DNA of 36,647 nt from a virus. The stretch is taken from IMG/VR virus record IMGVR_UViG_3300025128_000140, positions 1 to 36,647 of that record. The stretch is one strand, 5' to 3'. Made by a program: the position numbers and the translations under genes. The notes under the pieces are model-generated. The model saw only the letters and a program-made list of their open reading frames with translations, did not search any database and was not told the DNA's origin. Shown here piece after piece: positions 641 through 22,055 of this stretch (positions are counted from its first letter, which is position 1; the number at the start of each line of letters is the position of its first letter).

Positions 641-3600
641 AATCGTACTTAACCTTGAGCTGTTAGAATCAATTTGTGCTCCCGTGGTAGCTGAAAGCGT
701 TGTGCTTACGCTAAATATATTTGGGCTTCCTGAAGTAAATGTAACGGATGTATCTCCAACTCCAGTGATCTGAATTACATTTGAATTATAAATATCAGAG
801 TAGGGTGTTCCTGTTCCTGATACTCTAAAGCTATAGTCTCCACCGGCGGGGCCTGTTGATCCAGTATCACCCTTGTCGCCCTTTGTTCCATCTAATTTAG
901 TAACACTAAACCATGTGGAGTTAGCAGTGCTGGTTCTTGTTGTGTTCCCTGCATTCTCGTTCCAAAGATATATTTCAAAATAATCTCCAGACGTTCCCGT
1001 AACTACCGTGTTTATATTATTGCGTCTGTTTCCTCCGAATGAGGTTTCAGTATAATCTGTGGCCCATGTAACAACAGAGTCTCCGGAAGAACTAGGCAGG
1101 GCTATGCTTCCATTTTTGTAAATACCTAGACCCCAATTACCGAGCTGAGTAAACCCTGCATATGCTACTCCAGCGTTTATGTAGTAAACACCAGTTTCCT
1201 GAAGCGTAATACGTCCGGAAGCTGAAGCCGGATGGATCGAACCACTTATATTTCCATACTCATAGTCTATTACATCAAAGACTGCCTGAGTAGCAACTTC
1301 ATCTGTTACCACAGTTCCCTGTGTTGTAGTAAGTCTACATGCAACAGGCTCTGTTGGAATGAGATCTGCTAGATTTCCGGAAGTGTTATATAGTCCTGTG
1401 AATAAAGCGTTACCTGTACTTATTAGTGTGGAAGAGTCCACCATGTTGCCGGAAGTATTGTAGAGTCCTGTAAACAAAGCGTTTCCGGTGCTAATAAGGT
1501 TAACTGCCGTTGCAACACCTGTGCTTTCGATTGTCGAAATACGTGTATTGAGGTTTCCTGAAGTGGTGAACACACCGGTCTGGACAGCGTTACCGGTGGC
1601 GATGATCGTTGACGAGCCGATAGCAGCGGTGGTTTGTATTGTACCGTCCCCGAACTCGTAGTGTGCTCCACTAATAGCTCCGGTGGAATTTACACTAGCT
1701 ACATCAAGTGTACCTGTTTGCCACACTGTAAGATCTGCGCTACCGCCGTTTCTTTGAACTATCAACCCAACATCAGATGTTGCTTTGGGAATAATTTCGA
1801 GGGTGGCATCTGGGTCAAGATTCCCCGCTCCAACATTACCTATCGCAAGCTTCTTGCTGTCCGTATCTCCAATAATAGTGTGTTCAATATGAAGCTTATT
1901 ACTATTGTCCCCTATTATGCTGTCTCCGTTTCTGTATGTTTGAATTTCTATGTTGTAGTCGCCGCTAATGCCCCTTCCGGCGCTATGACCTATGTACTGG
2001 TTGTATGATCCGGTCGCAACGTACCCAGCTAAATACCCGATAGCATTTGAGTATTTTGGTCCTCCTCCTGTAATAGCAGTTTGCTTTCCAGCCTGATAAC
2101 CGATAAGATTTGAGTAAGCAGTCCCGCTTGTAGAGTTACCCGCATCGTAGCCAACAAAGACGCTATAGTCTGCATCCAGCCCCACATAGCCAGCATTTGT
2201 TCCGATGAAAATAGCATTGTCGTTTCCACTTCCACCGCCAGCAGCAGAATTACGACCCAAGAATATGGTGTCTGTGTTGTTATCGTTGCTAGACCCTGCG
2301 TGGTAACCTATCTCAATAACCTTACTATTCCCGGTGTTCGACGAACCGGCATCTCCGATCTGTATATTGTTATCGGTAAATGTGATCCGATCAAAATGCC
2401 CTGTACCGGTGGTGTTAAACTCTGTTCCCACAAGGGTTAGGCCTGAACCAGCAGTATAGGTAGTTCCCCCTCCTGCTATCTGAGATTGTAAGTCTCCAGA
2501 AACAACCCTGACAGCGTTAGGCGTAACTGCTTTTGTTGTAGAAGTATCAACACTATCTTGAAGTTGAAGAACACCTACTTGACTTGTAGAACCAGCAACG
2601 CCACTTATCGTAACCTTGTGTCTTTTTGACGAGATAAGCTGTCCGGTTGTATATATGCCATTAACGCCACTAAAATCGACGCCTGCTCCCGAACCAATGG
2701 TATTGGAACCAGCCGTAACATAATTGTAATATTCTTTATCTGGATTGCTGACAATCAAAGACCAATTTTCAAAAGCTGTATTTTGATTACTAGCATCAGC
2801 AAATCGTACTCCGCTTACACCAAGGACTAACTCGTCTATGCTTGTATTAAAGGTTAAATTAGTATCAAAAGTTAATCCATCTGTGGCGTCCCAAAGGGCC
2901 AGCTTTTTAATGTTTGTGGAGGGTGCGGAACCAAGTCCGGTAACAGCGCCACTGCTCTCGACAGTCGAAATGCGAGTGTTGAGGTTTCCGGAAGTAGTGA
3001 ACACACCGGTCTGGACAGCGTTACCCGTGCTAACGAGGTTAGCGATTACGGTGTCTCCGGTCGATGCGAGGTTAGCTGCTGTTGCAACGCCTGTGCTCTC
3101 GATAGTCGAAATGCGAGAGTGTAAAACGTTGCCCGTGCTGACGAGGTTTCCTGAAGTGCTGTATATGCCGGTTGTATTAGAATCTATCTTTGCGCCACTT
3201 GTAGGAGTATAGGCAATCCTCTGCTCTTTACCACCGTCTTCAAGGAAAGTAATTCCACTAACTCGAATTCCGCTGCTAAAGTTACCAACACCCGATACGT
3301 CCAAATCGTAAGCTGGAGAAGTATTATTTCCCAGCCCTACAGCTAATTTATTTCCAAATCCGATATTTACTCTATCATCATCTTCGTCCAGTAGCAACAT
3401 TTGATTACCACCAACAACGAATCTTAATCTATCTTCAGAATCTGTTTCAATCCAAGTTCCTTTATCTGATTCAAAATATATTTTTTGATCTTGGTCTAAA
3501 TTTATATCTCCTCCAGCGGTAACAGTGATACCAGAGGCCCCTACGTTTATTCCTGTAGCTAAAGCAATTGAACCCGTAGAAAATACTGAACCTGAAGCAG

Positions 3601-5939: not shown

Positions 5940-6653
5940 TTATTCTCCTAATTCTTGATTAAGAACGTAAGTATTTACCCACTCACGAAGATTGGCACGA
6001 ACATGAGATGTTTCATCTTCTGTGTTGTCAGAAGCGACCGACATGTCAATCGTTTCTTCTACAGAAGCAGTTTCGAGTACCTCTTCGTCAACTTCTGAAG
6101 CCTCTTCACGGACTTCATCCTCAGCTTCGGTATTCGCCTCTTCAGCTTCAACTTCTGCTTTGGTGTCTTTTTTGTCTTCATCGTCGGCCTCTTTTTCTTT
6201 GTTGGCCTTCTTTTTAGACATGTATGCGGATTTCAAAGTTTCGGCTACTGCTGCGAACTGTTCATCACTTAAACCATCGAAAGTTTCGATTTTTGCAGCA
6301 GCTTCTTCTTCTGAAAGCCCCGCTTCAATAAGTGTGGCTGTTCGGTCAGCCGTTGCCTTTTCTTTTTGCATCGCTTGTACTAGATCTTCCGCTTCTGTTC
6401 TGGCCGTCACTGCGGCTGCAAGCTTAGCTTCCAGCTCCTCTGACTTAGAAACTTCCGACTCTAGCTCATTGTTAGATTCGGCTATGGAACCTTCAAGAGA
6501 TTCGATTTGAGCCGTAAGTTCAGCAATTTGCTTTTCCCACGTCTCAACATTAGCCTTTGAGAGCTTGTCTGAAAGTTCCTTATTTTCAGCCTGAACGTCA
6601 GCTAGAGCTTCTCGAAGCTCACCAATCTGAGTGTTCAAAATATCAGTAGACAT
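5940..6653 (-). CDS. Nested scaffold protein from internal start
   Basis: Met305 of the protease-scaffold frame (ATG at 6651-6653) is preceded by a textbook AGGAG at 6663-6667 with 9-nt spacing. Initiation here gives a 237-residue protein (MSTDILNTQIGELREAL...) containing only the coiled-coil and acidic scaffold parts. In-frame nested scaffold genes are known from other phages, such as lambda C/Nu3. The ribosome-binding site is visible; the separate product is inferred. Confidence 0.6.
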   Translation of the reverse strand: MSTDILNTQIGELREALADVQAENKELSDKLSKANVETWEKQIAELTAQIESLEGSIAESNNELESEVSKSEELEAKLAAAVTARTEAEDLVQAMQKEKATADRTATLIEAGLSEEEAAAKIETFDGLSDEQFAAVAETLKSAYMSKKKANKEKEADDEDKKDTKAEVEAEEANTEAEDEVREEASEVDEEVLETASVEETIDMSVASDNTEDETSHVRANLREWVNTYVLNQELGE

Positions 6654-7602: not shown

Positions 7603-9786
7603 TTATTCGTAATTCTCTTTATAATAGACATAGAAAGAGGCTCTAAGGTTTCTTCTTTCCTCTACCGTCAGTTTTCTACCTACCTCTTGAGACGCTTCTG
7701 AAATCCAGAAATCACACTCAGAATGAATCTCTGAAGATATAGGTTTCATATTAATAGCTTCAGCAATACAAACTTCATCAAAGCCTTTATCTTGATTTAT
7801 ATTACAAAGAATCTCAAACTTAATCTTTTCCGCCTGAAGCGATTCTTCTGATGTTAGGCTTCTCATTGTACTCTTATTGAATTGAGCAAGTATAGCTGGA
7901 TTCATTGTCTGAGATATTGCGTCTTGAGCCTGTTTCGCCCAAAGTTCTAAGGAAGCTCTTCTTTTTGGTTTGAACGTTCTTTTTTCTCTAGGCTGTATAT
8001 CTCTTGAATTTTTTGGCCTTCCGGGACCTTCTGTTTGCGTCTGGTCTTCTTCAAAGGGAAGCTCTAGTTGTTTTTCCGTATTGCTAGGTTCTTTTGGCTT
8101 TTGTCTAAGTTCAAGAGCTGACTCATCTCCGTTCTTAGGCTTTAACTTAACCCCAACCTGAGTGGGGGAGACAACACCTGTCTGAAGAGATATTTTTTCG
8201 AGAGAAAATTCTTTATCGACCGCATGATATGGGCTAATTTTTTCAGACATAGAACCTCCCCTTCTTTTATTTTCCTCATTCTTAAGGCGCTTTCTTTCTA
8301 TATCTGGTTGGGCCTTCACATTTCTTTGAACAAGCTCGTCGCTTATTATGTTTCTATCGGCAAGATTTATCATTAGCTGTGTCATTGCAGCAGGATCATC
8401 CAAGTACATAAAATCGAACTCTACCTTAGCGCCAAACCTAAAGCCCATAGCTTCTTGAACCATCTTGATTTGCTCATTCCAGAATTCAATTAAGATATTC
8501 CTTACATAATTTAACCTCTCCGTTAATGTCTTTAGGGAGATGAAATTATTTGTAGTTCCAGCAGCACCAAATGTTCCTGTAAGAGTAGGGGGAATTCCAA
8601 GGCAGGCGTAAATAGCCATAAGGGTAGGCTTATACTTTTCCTCTCCTAAGAATCTTTGAACGTCTGTTCCTGTTTCTATTAGCTCTATATCTGGACCCCA
8701 GACAATATCTATAGTTCCGCCGCCAACATTCGTTCCTAGTATCTCTCCCAGCGAAGCCGCTGCTGTTGAAGTTGGGGCTAGCTTGTGGTCTAAACTTCCC
8801 AGTTTCCAAACTCTAATTTTTGAAATGGCTCCGTCAAGGGCGGCTTGATCTGCAAGCTTTAGTTTTTCATAAAGTAAAAGGTCTTTAAAGCAAGCGTAGG
8901 TCATAGGATCTGCCCATTCCTGCCAGTCATCCTTCTTGTAATTAAGAAAGAAGGTTTTGTCTGGAGGTAGCAGTATTCCCTTAGATGTTTCAGAAGCTTG
9001 TAATATTTCGTCAGGAACTTGACTTAAAAGAGATCTTTCTGACGCATTGGGGCTGTTTTGTAATTTTTTAATTGACCTTCTTAAAGATGGCGGTAATTGC
9101 ATCTTATAAAGTTTTGAACCCACTAGGTTTGAAATACTACCGCCTACAGGGTCTATTAGGAGTGGATCTAGAAAAATGTATTGCCAAGGAAGCTCTCCCT
9201 TTTTAAATGTGTTATGATTTAGTGTTGCTTGCATATCGGGAGAGGCAACGGATTTTTGCATTTTCAAACGTTTGGTTTTACTTAGCTTTGCTGTCTTCAT
9301 CCTTATTGGAACGTTTGCTTCTCTAAATAAAAGATTACAGATTCTTTCCGAAACAAACTTTCCTCTTGTTCTGCTAAACCAGTCGTTATAGAATTTTTCT
9401 ATTCGAGGGTTCTGGTGAACTAGACGTACTCCTTGACAAGCAAAATCACCCATAAGATCTATAGCATTTCTTATTAATCCAATCCTTCTATAGGCTGATC
9501 TAGCGAAAGCTATTATATCCTTAGGTTTATTTGGAACTGCTTGTCCGGGACGAAACCAATCAAAATCCGCCTGACCTAGACCGGGTCTTCCGCTAAGCCT
9601 AGTTGTTAAGTCGGAAAAGTCTCTTGTTCTTGAACCTAGACTTGCGTAACTGAGTTCAGAAACAGCATCGCTGTAGCTAGCAAGTGCTTTATCTCGTTCC
9701 TTTGGATCGCTTGAATCCCAGCTGACATAGGCTGCGCCCTCCGGAATATTTGATTCACTGCTCTTTGGATAACGTCTTTTTGCCAC
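7603..9786 (-). CDS. Portal protein
   Basis: At 727 residues this is large for a portal. It lies directly after the large terminase and before the protease, as in most tailed phages. The stretch IAFARSAYRRIGLIRNAIDL near residue 90 and the central LGIPPTLTGTFGAAGTTNNF followed by a long helix (LTERLNYVRNILIEFWNEQ) are typical of portal crown and stem regions. The C-terminal third is Lys/Glu-rich and low in complexity. It would form the dodecameric vertex through which DNA enters. The start is GTG at 9786 with GGAG 6 nt upstream. Confidence 0.8.
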   Translation of the reverse strand: MAKRRYPKSSESNIPEGAAYVSWDSSDPKERDKALASYSDAVSELSYASLGSRTRDFSDLTTRLSGRPGLGQADFDWFRPGQAVPNKPKDIIAFARSAYRRIGLIRNAIDLMGDFACQGVRLVHQNPRIEKFYNDWFSRTRGKFVSERICNLLFREANVPIRMKTAKLSKTKRLKMQKSVASPDMQATLNHNTFKKGELPWQYIFLDPLLIDPVGGSISNLVGSKLYKMQLPPSLRRSIKKLQNSPNASERSLLSQVPDEILQASETSKGILLPPDKTFFLNYKKDDWQEWADPMTYACFKDLLLYEKLKLADQAALDGAISKIRVWKLGSLDHKLAPTSTAAASLGEILGTNVGGGTIDIVWGPDIELIETGTDVQRFLGEEKYKPTLMAIYACLGIPPTLTGTFGAAGTTNNFISLKTLTERLNYVRNILIEFWNEQIKMVQEAMGFRFGAKVEFDFMYLDDPAAMTQLMINLADRNIISDELVQRNVKAQPDIERKRLKNEENKRRGGSMSEKISPYHAVDKEFSLEKISLQTGVVSPTQVGVKLKPKNGDESALELRQKPKEPSNTEKQLELPFEEDQTQTEGPGRPKNSRDIQPREKRTFKPKRRASLELWAKQAQDAISQTMNPAILAQFNKSTMRSLTSEESLQAEKIKFEILCNINQDKGFDEVCIAEAINMKPISSEIHSECDFWISEASQEVGRKLTVEERRNLRASFYVYYKENYE

Positions 9787-9843
9787 TTTTTCTCCGATAC
9801 ATATTCAATTACAAAACAATACCTATTGTTTTTACACCAATGG

Positions 9844-11922
9844 TTATTGATTGTTCTTTTTTATTACGAAGCAGGTATTTTGGTTGAATTCCTTTGCCCA
9901 TTCTGGACCAACATACATACTTCCTTCTTGTCCTCTTGATACAGCTTGCCCTGCTATTCTTCCTATAGATTGATATGTGGGCGGTGGTAGTTCTCTGTAC
10001 AAAGTTCTAGCTATCATGTTCGCTATGACTAAAGCACTATAGCGGTCCTTGCGTAACCTTCCCTTTTTTCCTGTTTCTAGTTTAATCTCTGGCGTATTCC
10101 ATCTTTCTCTACCTGCTGGAGTTATGGTCATTACGATACTTGAAAGCTCATCCTTTAGTTCCTCTATCTCCATTACGCCATCCTCTAATGTATCATAGAG
10201 TCTAAGGGCGTCTGTTTCTCCTGTCTTTTGTTTCATTTCGTTAAAAAATATTTTATCTTTTTCTGTCATCAGACTTAGTGTTAATGTATCAAATCTTGGA
10301 AACAATAACACTTTATCTTCTAGGTCTTTTCTCATTCCATGATTCGCCTGTGAAGTCCATGCAGCACTAGCAAAATTAATTAGATGTAAAATGTGGTCAC
10401 CCGCTAAATCATCTGTGTCCTTAGATTTTCCATCCTCTATGATTTCGTATATTGGTCTCTCCCCTTCTTGGAGCTTATCTAAATCTCTTAAAGCTTCTGC
10501 TATTGTATAACCCCCACCCTGAGAGTCTATACCTATACGAACGCAAGGAAAGGCTTTTGCTAAATCTCTAATTTTTCTAGCACAAAAACTATAATAGTCA
10601 TGGCTGTCTGTTAAGCCTATTTTTTTTCTTCCCTGAAAGTCTTTTTTGTTTGTGCTCCAAGTGTAAATGACCCTTTGGTGTTCTGGTCTTAATTCTAATA
10701 TTACAATCGCAAAATTGTCTTGCTCGGAAGCTGGGTCAATTCCCATTACATAAGACATGCCAGAAGACCCTCTTGTTGTTGTATCAAATGGGTTGGGGCA
10801 CCAAGTAGGCCAACCTGTCTTCTCGCAATTCTCATCATTAGAAACACAGGAGTGTATTAAGCTTCTTTTGAAAAAGCCTTGGCTATCAGAAGTAAAACAA
10901 GCACCATACTCCATCTGGTAAATACCGTTATGCATAGTTGCTCTAGCTCTGGCTACTTGCTGGTCATCCATAAAACCCTCAGGTATTAGCTCGTATGGAA
11001 TGCGAATAACAGAAAAGTTTTTCCAGTCTAGCCTTTTCATATATTCTGGAACTTCATCGGGGTCTTCCCCGGCATCTTCCGCAACCTTTTTGAAGTCCCC
11101 TCTGTTTTGTATGGTTGACTTATATTTTTTCCAGTAAGAGGCGTATGGCTCAAACTCATAACCTGCTGTTCCTGCTATGATTGACTGGTTAGCTCTCTTT
11201 TCTTGATATGCTTCCTCGAAAGTGTCTTTCCAAAGGCCCTGCTCCTGCATACTTTTTCTAGCGGCTGCTTGCTTTACATTTTCTGTAGGATTACTAGAAA
11301 CCGCAGCAAAACCAGCAACAACAGTTTCGTAGATATGTGTTGGGATACTATTGAATTCGTCCGCTATAATTGTATGGGCTCTTAAACCACGAATCTTAGT
11401 TCCATCCCCAAGGGGAACAGCCATGGCCCAGCTATCATTTATTCTCATAGTGCATCTGTCAACGTCTCTTCTGGGGCCGCTGCTATCGGAACAAACACTC
11501 TGAAGGAGGGGTGCATTTCTCCAGATAGAATCCATGTATTCAAATATAACCTTAGACTGCCTAAATGCAGCGCCTACTATAACTATTTTTGTTTCTGGGA
11601 TCAATAAGCATCTGAGGAGACAGTACACAGCTAACAAAAACGATTTACCAAAACCACGACTTGCCGTATACATGGGAAACGATCTGATCCAAAGCTCTTT
11701 TAATATGGCTGTTTGGAGTGGCAATAAATCTACATTAAGCATCACCTTTGTTGTCCACTGAAAATATTCTGGTTTCTTCATTAGAGATAAAACGTGTAGG
11801 TGAATATTCTCAATTTGATCGGTTGATAAATTCAGTAGAGGGTTATCGGCGCCCTCCATGTCTTTGGGTGTCACTCCTAACCAAGCATTTTCCGGTGAAT
11901 TTATATCAATTATGGAGTTCAT
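9844..11922 (-). CDS. terL: Terminase large subunit (packaging ATPase/nuclease)
   Basis: The 692-residue protein has an adenine-site region, a Walker A-like SRGFGKS at residues 88-94, and a Walker B TIIADEF at 184-190 with Asp188-Glu189. The nuclease half has an RNase H-like fold, with YVMGIDPASE (Asp396) and VRIGIDSQGG (Asp466) supplying likely metal ligands. It would pump DNA into the prohead through the adjacent portal and cut the concatemer. It overlaps the upstream nuclease gene by 17 nt. Confidence 0.93.
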   Translation of the reverse strand: MNSIIDINSPENAWLGVTPKDMEGADNPLLNLSTDQIENIHLHVLSLMKKPEYFQWTTKVMLNVDLLPLQTAILKELWIRSFPMYTASRGFGKSFLLAVYCLLRCLLIPETKIVIVGAAFRQSKVIFEYMDSIWRNAPLLQSVCSDSSGPRRDVDRCTMRINDSWAMAVPLGDGTKIRGLRAHTIIADEFNSIPTHIYETVVAGFAAVSSNPTENVKQAAARKSMQEQGLWKDTFEEAYQEKRANQSIIAGTAGYEFEPYASYWKKYKSTIQNRGDFKKVAEDAGEDPDEVPEYMKRLDWKNFSVIRIPYELIPEGFMDDQQVARARATMHNGIYQMEYGACFTSDSQGFFKRSLIHSCVSNDENCEKTGWPTWCPNPFDTTTRGSSGMSYVMGIDPASEQDNFAIVILELRPEHQRVIYTWSTNKKDFQGRKKIGLTDSHDYYSFCARKIRDLAKAFPCVRIGIDSQGGGYTIAEALRDLDKLQEGERPIYEIIEDGKSKDTDDLAGDHILHLINFASAAWTSQANHGMRKDLEDKVLLFPRFDTLTLSLMTEKDKIFFNEMKQKTGETDALRLYDTLEDGVMEIEELKDELSSIVMTITPAGRERWNTPEIKLETGKKGRLRKDRYSALVIANMIARTLYRELPPPTYQSIGRIAGQAVSRGQEGSMYVGPEWAKEFNQNTCFVIKKNNQ

Positions 11923-15909: not shown

Positions 15910-16081
15910 TCAGGTTGAGTATCAGATAAGGAAAGCGGAGCGTGGTATTAAGGTGTTATATACTGGAGGTGCTGACTCTAAGAGGATTCTGGAGTATGGG
16001 GAGAAAAGAGAAAAATTAAAGGATAGGTTAGAGGAATTAGCTGGTCGCAGAGAACCGGAATCTCCGGAGTGGCCATTGTAA
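15881..16081 (+). CDS. Small helical protein, function unknown
   Basis: The protein has 66 residues from GTG 15881, which has GGGGAG 7 nt upstream; an in-frame ATG at 15866 would lack a good site. It reads VLPKQYLIDQVEYQIRKAER then KDRLEELAGRREPESPE, mostly charged helix. It is sandwiched by overlaps between the helix-turn-helix gene and the endonuclease gene. No family recognised. Confidence 0.5.
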   Translation: MVLPKQYLIDQVEYQIRKAERGIKVLYTGGADSKRILEYGEKREKLKDRLEELAGRREPESPEWPL

Positions 16082-17286
16082 GAGAGGAAGAGGATGTGGA
16101 GGAGATAGAATCTGGGGATCTATACCGCAAATACCCCAATAGGACTAAGATCAAAAAATATTGCGGCGTCTATGCTATTGTTAATCAAAACAATAAAAAA
16201 ATATATGTGGGCTCGTCATCACATATGTATCACAGGATTAGAACACATGTGTCACACTTGTCTAAGGGGTCTCATTACAATTCCTCTTGGCAGGAGGACT
16301 ATAATAAAAAACATACTTTTAAGTATTATATTGTCTGTAATTGTCCTGAAGGTGAAGAGCTAGCAAAAGAGAAGGAAGTGTTGAACTCCTATAGTATGGG
16401 GCGACTTTATAATACTTGGCGTTCTCAAGGGGTGGATGATCTACTACCGTTCTTAGAAAAGGCTATCGCTAGTAAAACGTACAGAGAGGCTTATACTATA
16501 AACGAAGAAACGGGCTGTTGGGAATCTAATCGTGTGGAGAAAAGAAGTGGTTATAGCAAGATGCAGGTAAGGATAAACGGTAAAGTGAGAAGTCTACTTA
16601 GACACCGCATTGCGTACTGGGAGAGATATGGGGAATATCCTGAATTAGTCCGACATAAGTGTGATAACAAAGCATGTAGAAACCCATCACACCTAGAGAA
16701 GGGTACTCATAAGCAGAATTCAGATGACAAAAGTCGTGACTTTTACAAGAAATTCAGAGAGGTCTGGATAAGCCTTGGTGGAGATCCTGTTGAGATAACG
16801 AAACATTTTGGTTGGAAAACAAACTGTAGCACGACAAGGGGTGGTGTTGCTAGCGCTGTCTATAAGTACGAAAAGAAGACCGGTATAAAAGAAGAGTTTC
16901 CTGAAATTATAAAAAAAAGAAAGCGGGCTGTAAGTGGTAATGCGTCGGGGATTGTTTACAACAAAGATGCTGTAGTGTTTACCAAAGAAGAAGAAGATTA
17001 CATTCGGGAAAATTATAAAAATATGAGTGATAGAAAAATTGCAGAGGAGCTAAACAAGAGAGACGAGAGGTTTACATCTGCTATTTTAATAAAAAGAATG
17101 GATGTTTTTAGGTGTAGGACATATGAATTGCGATTGACAAAGAGGCCTAAATACAATAGAGACAATTTTGATATTGAAAAAGCATTAGAGCTTTATAAGC
17201 AAGGGAAAAGTTTTTTTGCTATAGCTAAAGAATTGTCTGTCTCGGGCAAGGTGGTAAAAAGACTTATAGAAAATGAAATAGAATAG
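16069..17286 (+). CDS. GIY-YIG and HNH endonuclease fusion with C-terminal helix-turn-helix
   Basis: The protein has 405 residues and starts at GTG 16069. Residues 32-120 form a GIY-YIG nuclease: GVYAIVNQ, KIYVGSSSH, an Arg in HRIRTH near 57, a Glu in AKEKEVLNSY near 102 and Asn in LYNTW. Residues about 145-225 form an HNH domain: ETGCWESNR, LLRHRIAYWERYGEYP, VRHKCDNKACRNPSHLEKGT. Residues 325-405 carry two DNA-binding segments (FTKEEEDYIRENYKNMSDRK and ALELYKQGKSFFAIAKELSV). Two nuclease types in one chain is unusual for phage homing enzymes. It lies alone on the plus strand beside the operon junction, as a free-standing homing gene might. Confidence 0.85.
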   Translation: MAIVREEEDVEEIESGDLYRKYPNRTKIKKYCGVYAIVNQNNKKIYVGSSSHMYHRIRTHVSHLSKGSHYNSSWQEDYNKKHTFKYYIVCNCPEGEELAKEKEVLNSYSMGRLYNTWRSQGVDDLLPFLEKAIASKTYREAYTINEETGCWESNRVEKRSGYSKMQVRINGKVRSLLRHRIAYWERYGEYPELVRHKCDNKACRNPSHLEKGTHKQNSDDKSRDFYKKFREVWISLGGDPVEITKHFGWKTNCSTTRGGVASAVYKYEKKTGIKEEFPEIIKKRKRAVSGNASGIVYNKDAVVFTKEEEDYIRENYKNMSDRKIAEELNKRDERFTSAILIKRMDVFRCRTYELRLTKRPKYNRDNFDIEKALELYKQGKSFFAIAKELSVSGKVVKRLIENEIE

Positions 17287-20631: not shown

Positions 20632-20793
20632 ATGAACACAAAAAAAATGAAAAAAGAATTATGGGAAGCTTACTACACGGCTAAAGCCGAGGGAGCTTCG
20701 AGGGAAGTTACCAACGCCATTATTGACGTTATGGTTATCGCTGATAAAGAAGCGGAAGAAAAAAAGTTAGAAAAAACTAAAGTTTGCTCTTGA
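20632..20793 (+). CDS. Small charged helical protein
   Basis: The protein has 53 residues: MNTKKMKKELWEAYYTAKAE, VTNAIIDVMVIADKE and a Lys/Glu-rich tail ending KVCS. It is probably all helical. Its TGA stop is embedded in the next promoter's TTGACA. Unknown. Confidence 0.55.
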   Translation: MNTKKMKKELWEAYYTAKAEGASREVTNAIIDVMVIADKEAEEKKLEKTKVCS

Positions 20794-20818
20794 CAAACGC
20801 CGATAAGTATGTTATACT
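20790..20818 (+). promoter_or_regulatory. Sigma70-like promoter overlapping a stop codon
   Basis: TTGACA, 17 bp, TATACT with GCCGATAAGTA. It starts the transcript carrying the acidic protein and, probably, the large structured RNA after it. Confidence 0.9.
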
Positions 20819-20824
20819 TAAGGC

Positions 20825-20905
20825 ATAACGAAAAGGGAACTGGAGCAATAGCTAGGGTTAAGAGCCACTGAATCCCACAGCAACATTTTACGGAAGGTTT
20901 TAGAT
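20825..20905 (+). promoter_or_regulatory. Structured 5' leader of the acidic-protein gene
   Basis: This is about 80 nt, longer than the 25-35 nt leaders of most neighbours. GCTAGGGTT (20850-20858) can pair with AATCCCACAGC (about 20872-20882). The usual AACGAAAAGGG sits at its 5' end rather than next to the start; ACGGAAGG lies nearer the ATG. Confidence 0.45.
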
Positions 20906-21130
20906 ATGGTTAATTTCGACGGATTTATGGAAGATCGACTAAACGGCGGCTATGGTCACGAATTGGATCGCCTACTAAACGACGAGTGGAACGAGTGGGA
21001 AGATTTCGAGGATCTCGAACTCGATACCGATGGCGACGAGTTTGATGGTCAGCCGGATGAGTATACTGAATGGCAGGATTTTTATGACGGCGATGATTGG
21101 GATCATGGCCAATACGACGAAATACTTTAA
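20906..21130 (+). CDS. Extremely acidic small protein, candidate DNA mimic
   Basis: The protein has 74 residues with 17 Asp and 11 Glu against two Arg and no Lys. Acidic and aromatic residues alternate (NEWEDFEDLELD, EYTEWQDFYDGDD). Such composition is characteristic of DNA-mimic inhibitors such as anti-restriction proteins, but no specific family is recognisable. It follows its own strong promoter and structured leader and precedes the large structured RNA. A calcium-binding or chaperone-like acidic protein is an alternative. Confidence 0.6.
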   Translation: MVNFDGFMEDRLNGGYGHELDRLLNDEWNEWEDFEDLELDTDGDEFDGQPDEYTEWQDFYDGDDWDHGQYDEIL

Positions 21131-21600
21131 TACAAGTGCGTGGTAATTGGATAAGGAAACCTCTGCGACTTGGACATGTCAGTCCGCAAGTTAATTCGCT
21201 TTTCCAGTGCCACAACCTACCCACGACGCTGGCGTGGGTGTCACTGTCCGAGGCATCGGGTTGCAGTGGATGAGAGCCGTGGTTCGATCCCCACGCTCAC
21301 CAGCACAATACAACGCCGCTCCCCTTTGGTAAAGTGAAAGCCGAACGTCTGCCACTGGGGTATAAATGCGGCACAATACATATGGCTTGGCGAAGTGCGC
21401 CGGTTGATAAGTCACTGATCCGTGAACGACACGAAACCGAGGATGCCTTGTGGGGCGGTTAACCAAATCGGTGGATACACTGGGACAGCTTAGTCCCGCC
21501 GAGTTCAGTGCAATCGGTCAGAGGTGTAACTCCTCTGCAAGTCGCCTTACAATATGCGGCCCTGCTGGTTTCCTTTCGTGCCGGTGGGGTCGCTTTTTTG
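21131..21600 (+). ncRNA. Large structured non-coding RNA candidate
   Basis: About 470 nt without a credible gene but dense in nested complementarity. Helices seen: GCG-ACTTG-GAC with GTC-CAAGT-CGC (21165-21199); ACCCACG/CGTGGGT (21219-21239); CACTG/CAGTG enclosing CCGA-GGCA-TCGG (21242-21268); a T-arm-like CGTGG-TTCGATCC-CCACG (21278-21295); GCCGC/GCGGC with CCCC/GGGG (21315-21372); GGCG/CGCC near 21394-21406; GGGAC/GTCCC near 21482-21497; CAGAGG/CCTCTG near 21519-21537. GCACAATACA occurs twice (21303 and 21371). A helix GCGGCCC/GGGGTCGC then T6 (about 21558-21600) would terminate it. It is probably cotranscribed from 20790. Confidence 0.7.
21558..21600 (+). terminator. Intrinsic terminator of the large structured RNA
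   Basis: GCGGCCCTGCTGG pairs with CCGGTGGGGTCGC (with G-T pairs), followed by TTTTTT. Repeat copy 3 begins immediately after. Confidence 0.75.
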
Positions 21601-21675
21601 GCACGCGGGGTGCTGGCCGCCGTCGCCCTAAGTCCTTTGATACCAATGACTTACGACGATTTATGTGATTTAAAA
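21600..21675 (+). repeat. Intergenic palindromic repeat, copy 3
   Basis: GGCACGCGGGGTGCTGGCCG, then CTAAGTC (21628-21634), loop, GACTTAC (21648-21654) and GACGATTTATGTGATTTA. GCAC and GTGC in the arm can form a further small hairpin. The next promoter starts about 50 bp downstream. Confidence 0.85.
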
Positions 21676-21989: not shown

Positions 21990-22055
21990 TAAAACATAAC
22001 AAGGGCAACATTCAACTGGGGTAACCGACAGCACCCTAACACGAAAGGAAAGAAA

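Follow-up and report, generated by a model that had tools for sequence, protein, structure and literature searches.

The DNA that was analysed, hereafter the window, is the whole 36,647-nt stretch of IMG/VR record IMGVR_UViG_3300025128_000140, and the region under study comprises its positions 21131-21600. The promoter, the gene, the RNA modules with their parts and linkers, and the terminator described below all lie on the plus strand. A sigma-70-type promoter, TTGACA-17-TATACT (20790..20818), matched the consensus at 11/12 positions in a consensus scan, in agreement with the strong promoter that a first-pass annotation had placed at 20790; the relative L004 has a TTGACA...TATAAT promoter in the equivalent position. 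Next comes the gene of an acidic 74-aa protein (20906..21130), with the C-terminal sequence WQDxxxGDDWDHGQYD and without a Pfam match, which precedes the RNAs as had been noted. The region itself holds no credible gene, also as annotated: indels of 1, 2, 3 and 7 nt separate relatives from the window, and they have no open frame in common. It ends in a strong intrinsic terminator (21556..21599; a 13-bp stem followed by T6, z -4.95), which had been seen at first pass as well; in L003 and L007 the terminator stem is swapped for a different stem of equal complementarity. The description of 21131-21600 as structured RNA that is non-coding and ends at a terminator holds, and the positions of its three RNA modules (A, B and C) place them in one predicted transcription unit in the window.

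Near-perfect sigma-70 promoters are very dense in the window between 17000 and 22000, where they precede tiny genes; the scan gave 46 sites in 9 kb, with 22 expected in all, and seven of them are perfect (12/12). Recurrent 5'-leader elements, of GGGTTAAGAGCCACTG type and GGGCAACATTCAACTGGGGTAACCGACAGCACCC type, lie at 20831-20880 and 22000-22035. Leaders of these types are found 5' of several small genes in the window and in relatives and have no Rfam match. A palindromic repeat, CTAAGTCCTTTGATACCAATGACTTACG, is located at 21628-21655, and repeats resembling it occur in many intergenic copies in relatives (e.g. L001 8550 and 9970). Finally, one ORF (16069-17286) combines GIY-YIG and HNH domains with a weak helix-turn-helix match at its C-terminus.

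The many helices reported earlier for 21131-21600 were confirmed. They are organised as three independent RNA modules on A-rich linkers, and not as one 470-nt molecule: module A (21133..21308, about 175 nt), module B (21315..21372, 58 nt) and module C (21384..21547). The duplication of GCACAATACA is real, with two copies, and its reading has changed: both are linkers, one between A and B (21303..21312), unpaired and with first bases that may also close module A, and one between B and C (21371..21380), assigned from the sequence. Comparable A-rich linkers, of ACAATACA type, lie between the modules in relatives.

The division into three modules follows from the relatives, because A, B and C occur there apart or in other combinations. 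Short patterns from the first half of the region led to L001, L003 and L004, and later to L005 and L006; a search with an alignment of the protein of gene 88, which lies nearby, gave 44 phage loci and a single-sequence gene-88 search nothing. The homologue search with models R1-R3 covered the DNA-pattern matches and the fetched loci. The entire region is present in the viral records G002 and G003, at about 88% identity. Related phages have A, B or C singly, or the combinations A-C, B-C, C-B or A-B-C. The order A-B-C is kept in three relatives (L003/G002, L007/G003 and a SAR202-binned contig, L015), C comes after A in L001 and after B in L052, and in L064 C precedes a B-like element, to which the R3 match is weak (E 0.012). 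In seven phages (L028, L032, L038, L046, L056, L065 and L066) C is found alone with its own promoter, in six of the seven just 5' of gene 88, and C is therefore a gene in its own right. No record has more than one copy of any given module. The genome-collection matches L013, L014 and L016 were set aside as resembling unrelated coding DNA, and the extra loci that a broader DNA pattern for C had produced (L076-L089) were chance matches, without C by model R1.

This organisation bears on the first-pass proposal of one large RNA comparable to GOLLD; taken further, an RNA of the GOLLD/ROOL kind would fold across 470 nt and act as one particle. GOLLD and ROOL are structured phage RNAs of unexplained function, from tRNA-rich genomes or near tRNAs (PMC12286853), and the region resembles them in being a structured phage RNA; the A-B-C order kept in L003/G002, L007/G003 and L015 points the same way. 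However, these RNAs are single molecules of about 600-800 nt or more with an Rfam match. Whereas such an integrated RNA would reach at least about 600 nt, with modules always together and joined by inter-module pairing, the region consists of 470 nt in three short modules without a match, which are separable, are found apart and reordered, and need no inter-module helix. We regard the single particle as very improbable.

Rfam 15 gave no match at A, B or C, at the gathering threshold and up to E 10, and relatives behaved likewise, which bears out the earlier remark that no known class was recognised. A blastn search against 50,697 deposited phage records, in which module B was queried only as part of the whole region, returned chance matches and no homologue, and literature searches found no published description of A, B or C.

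The decisive support for structure is covariation and not folding energy. The whole 470 nt folds better than dinucleotide shuffles, but modestly (z -1.85, 3/100 as good), and the z values per module are -3.0 for A, -2.0 for B and -1.1 for C. The covariation analysis was run on homologue alignments that were not fitted to any structure, and it supported all three modules: 90.5% of the cells are paired in A, with 12 double-changed pairs versus 3.9 in shuffles, 99% in B (5 versus 1.9) and 93% in the sister subfamily of C (17 versus 10.3). When one strand is slid, pairing falls to about 34-55%. The paired percentages lean upward because the structures were derived from those same sequences; as evidence, the double changes carry more weight. 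The window's own subfamily of C (5 sequences) gave the same architecture independently, with 10 compensatory pairs. Moreover, a model made from the sister subfamily alone recovered the window's C with E=1.2e-5 in 742 kb, as well as L064 with 9e-9. The joint C alignment, which was fitted to the model, has double changes in 37/49 pairs (score 0.402 versus 0.133). A further member, L062 2122-2276, came from a separate scan for T-arm, acceptor and NCC and folded unaided into the same C shape; the T-arm/acceptor scans returned mostly canonical tRNAs, tmRNAs and members of C.

Model R2 matches module A in 7 phages, and 12/35 of its pairs have changes on both sides; a candidate pseudoknot, UUGGACA/UGUCCGA, has one pair broken in L058. 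The sequence CGTGG-TTCGATCC-CCACG, which had been taken for a tRNA-like T arm, is indeed present, as a hairpin of module A (21278..21295), but its T-loop is not conserved among the homologues of the module. These have GUGG-UUGAUCG-CCAC (close homologues) or GGGG-AAUGAUCG-CCCC, L005 has a different hairpin at this position, and the T-like sequence is common to the window and L001 only. On this comparison the T-arm likeness in module A is accidental. The genuine tRNA-like T-arm, together with an acceptor, is in module C, which the first-pass annotation did not single out.

From the position of module A, the region could be read as a structured 3' untranslated region with a stabilising or regulatory role for the mRNA of the acidic protein. 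Homologues of the acidic-protein ORF sit before module A in L035, L022, L036 and L058, and A lies immediately 3' of the gene in the window, L003, L007, L006 and L058. Nevertheless, in L005 the gene that precedes A is unrelated and A stands alone ahead of a terminator, L037 has the acidic-protein gene without A, and in relatives B and C have their own promoters without a preceding gene, which makes a 3' untranslated region improbable. In L006 and L058 module A precedes other RNAs. The contig with module A alone, L005, also carries a Type II hammerhead ribozyme (2551-2617, minus strand; Rfam 54 bits).

Module B is a two-part stem with a conserved loop, AAGUGAAAGCCnAACG, and an internal loop UAUAAA(C/U). 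Model R3 matched in 9 phage contigs with E < 1e-12. L037, L044, L050 and L051 have the module but neither A nor C, and in L037, L044 and L050 it is the first RNA after the promoter. A permuted twister ribozyme was considered for B and rejected, as judged by eye the topology differs, and there is no Rfam match. A separate conserved RNA of ~280 nt (AGCCCTGTGGGAGGTATAGTATCTCACT...GGAGAGAAGTAGGGTTGG) was seen in two phages (L006 6950-7240 and L037 778-1040); it adjoins module B in L037 and precedes tRNA-Asp in L006, and no Rfam match was reported for it in L006.

Module C, which measures 148-169 nt in its members, is supported in the window by the match to the sister-subfamily model, covariation and the consensus fold of its own subfamily. 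Its ends form an acceptor helix, in which GGCUUG (21384..21389) pairs with CAAGUC (21538-21543). Most members have 7 bp in this helix, and the window's subfamily has 6; C replaces U71 in L028, L052 has a compensatory change, L038, L046 and L056 have two mismatched pairs each, and L062 and L064 have a different 7-bp helix that is perfectly paired. Directly 5' of the acceptor's 3' strand lies the T-arm, CAGAGG-UGUAACU-CCUCUG (21519..21537), with 6 covarying pairs. The arm has a seven-base loop, for which the sister subfamily shows UUCGAnn and the window's subfamily a UGYRAnn type, where UGUAACU departs from the canonical UUCRANY. The 3' tail is GCCU in the window (21544..21547); among the 14 members it is GCCA in 11/14, GCCU in two (the window and L041) and ACCG in one. 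Since CCA is missing from the genes of the canonical tRNAs and tmRNAs in these phages, its encoding in C does not reflect a general habit. L062 keeps the GCCA tail though a 5' UGGC pairing partner is absent. Several members could instead close the acceptor by UGGC:GCCA pairs around a GUC bulge (the form in model R1); this alternative covaries, and was rejected as misfitting L062 and L064, which have continuous helices and an NCC tail.

The remainder of module C is built on two helices, P2 and P3, which together comprise about 12 bp, have a bulge of some six bases and carry hairpins at the tip. The P2 5' strand CCGGUU (21400..21405) pairs with 21512-21517, with strong covariation across the subfamilies, and the P3 5' strand CACUGA (21413..21418) pairs with 21505-21510, as covariation and the consensus fold indicate. 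From the bulge, UAAG (21408..21411) can pair with CUUA (21489-21492) in the loop of the last hairpin. Counterparts of this putative pseudoknot are UGAG:CUCA in the sister subfamily and UAACC:GGUUA in L062, so that it is supported by comparison, with few independent changes. By sequence comparison, the shape of C is an acceptor with NCC(A) stacked on a T-arm, i.e. the top half of a tRNA, in which the P2/P3 limb with its bulge pseudoknot takes the place of the D and anticodon arms.

Module C shares with tRNA (RF00005) the acceptor helix followed by a discriminator and CCA (14 members, of which 11 encode GCCA and three have an imperfect helix) and a T-arm with a T-loop, which in the sister subfamily is a UUCRANY loop. 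Unlike tRNA, it has about 150-170 nt, no anticodon arm and no cloverleaf of 70-95 nt, and neither ARAGORN (tRNA/tmRNA) nor the Rfam tRNA and tmRNA models recognise anything at C. The acceptor, the T-arm, the long helix that replaces the anticodon arm and the pseudoknot in the body are also found in the tRNA-like domain of tmRNA (RF00023), and real tmRNAs are carried by these phages, which could argue for C as a degenerate tmRNA or as a tRNA gene interrupted by an intron. Yet C has at most half the length of tmRNA, no match to RF00023 or by ARAGORN, and no recognised tag reading frame; G003 has C plus a separate, complete tmRNA at a different locus; a group I intron and a tRNA would not fit into the 148-169 nt of C; and the covariation of P2 and P3 extends across the would-be intron. 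Either origin is highly improbable. A, B and C are three unclassified RNA families, and C is a tRNA-like RNA that is not filed as tRNA or tmRNA because features that define each of them are lacking.

Complete phage tmRNA genes were located in L022 (16364-16702), L026 (19900-20373), L048 (19205-19546) and L061 (6564-6903), with the tags AEKNFALAA, AEENFSLAA, AETSFALAA and AKKQYALAA, respectively.

Viral RNAs that imitate part of a tRNA have a parallel in the tRNA-like structures of plant RNA viruses, which are located at the ends of RNA genomes and of which many have a pseudoknotted acceptor. The stable RNAs C and D of phage T4 (species 1 and 2), which originate from a tRNA region and whose function is unexplained, are comparable by general description.

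We tentatively favour, with confidence a little short of even, a co-transcribed array in which C would be matured like a tRNA and act as a tRNA mimic on host proteins that handle tRNA. Transcription from the promoter at 20790 would yield, as one unit, the mRNA of the acidic protein, the RNAs A, B and C, and the terminator. The modules are independent RNA genes in a string resembling a tRNA array, and are exchangeable between phages. Host RNase P and the 3'-trimming and CCA enzymes may cut C out of the transcript and leave it with a CCA end. The mature C, presumably stable, would then act as a decoy or regulator at the time of infection by binding to at least one host protein that handles tRNA; a synthetase, EF-Tu, RNase P, the CCA enzyme or a tRNA-directed defence nuclease can be guessed at as partners, and the specificity would probably come from the distal domain. 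A and B may be further stable RNAs, or elements for processing or stability of the same transcript. In favour of this picture stand the separate and reordered occurrence of the modules, the covariation of all three, the promoter of its own that C has in seven relatives, the acceptor, NCC(A) tail and T-arm in 14 members, the lack of encoded CCA in the canonical tRNAs and tmRNAs, and the unaided fold of L062. The acceptor mismatches in L038, L046 and L056, the alternative UGGC:GCCA pairing open to some members, the T-loop that is not UUCRANY, the GCCU tail of the window and the few independent changes behind the pseudoknot are points against a mimic.

The main rival holds that the tRNA-like ends of C serve maturation and stability only: host tRNA-processing enzymes would provide exact, protected ends for a non-coding RNA whose function lies wholly in the distal domain, through base pairing or through protein binding unrelated to tRNA. 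This would fit the conservation of acceptor and T-arm while the distal domain varies between subfamilies, the location of C in multi-RNA transcripts that need cutting, and the imperfect acceptor in three members. On the other hand, transcription in L038, L046 and L056 is predicted to start at or near the 5' end of C, so RNase P is unneeded there, yet these members keep the T-arm and GCCA. We consider this rival possible but rather unlikely.

More widely, C could be the first RNA family of DNA phages, neither tRNA nor tmRNA, that is both matured and recognised like a tRNA (through charging, or through binding to EF-Tu or a synthetase) and is carried in exchangeable arrays, as a decoy against host enzymes that target tRNA or as a means to retune host translation; this wider claim is speculative and we hold it with low confidence. 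The RNAs already known from phages include tRNAs, some tmRNAs and ornate RNAs that lack an explanation. To these C adds a tRNA top half, supported by covariation, on a different body with a pseudoknot, and it is exchanged as a cassette alongside two other unclassified RNA families. It is a short (about 150-170 nt) and testable object for what phage non-coding RNAs do. It may point to a mechanism of counter-defence or translation control that imitates tRNA, and phages may use tRNA-imitating RNAs for something other than decoding. In addition, libraries of RNA families could take up A, B and C as three entries.

Apart from two contigs, both binned in a single SAR202 MAG, every carrier is an IMG/VR contig. 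Of these two, one measures 64 kb and has A-B-C (L015, of the same phage type), and the other measures 153 kb, has C and shares 99.8% identity with a phage contig of IMG/VR along 18.6 kb. Among 197 genomes of the order of this MAG no further one has C, and among 393 genomes of its class no further one has B. SAR202 as host is uncertain, and a binning error is possible. The phage tmRNA in the SAR202 bin differs from the bin's own tmRNA (tag GENKLALAA).

Several other tRNA-like elements were observed in these phages. L062 has a 67-nt tRNA-like RNA of a form without a D-arm (2391-2457, GGACAGG...CCTGTCC), L058 a mini tRNA-like form at about 5990-6060 (GACTC...GAGTC with a T-arm), and L057 two tRNA-like RNAs 5' of gene 88 at about 9670-9930. 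Also 5' of gene 88, L023, L024, L027 and L029 share a recurring element, TGAGTCCGGTGAA...CATCGCGATTGAAATAGCGGC, which occupies the site of C or of tRNA-Asp in other phages.
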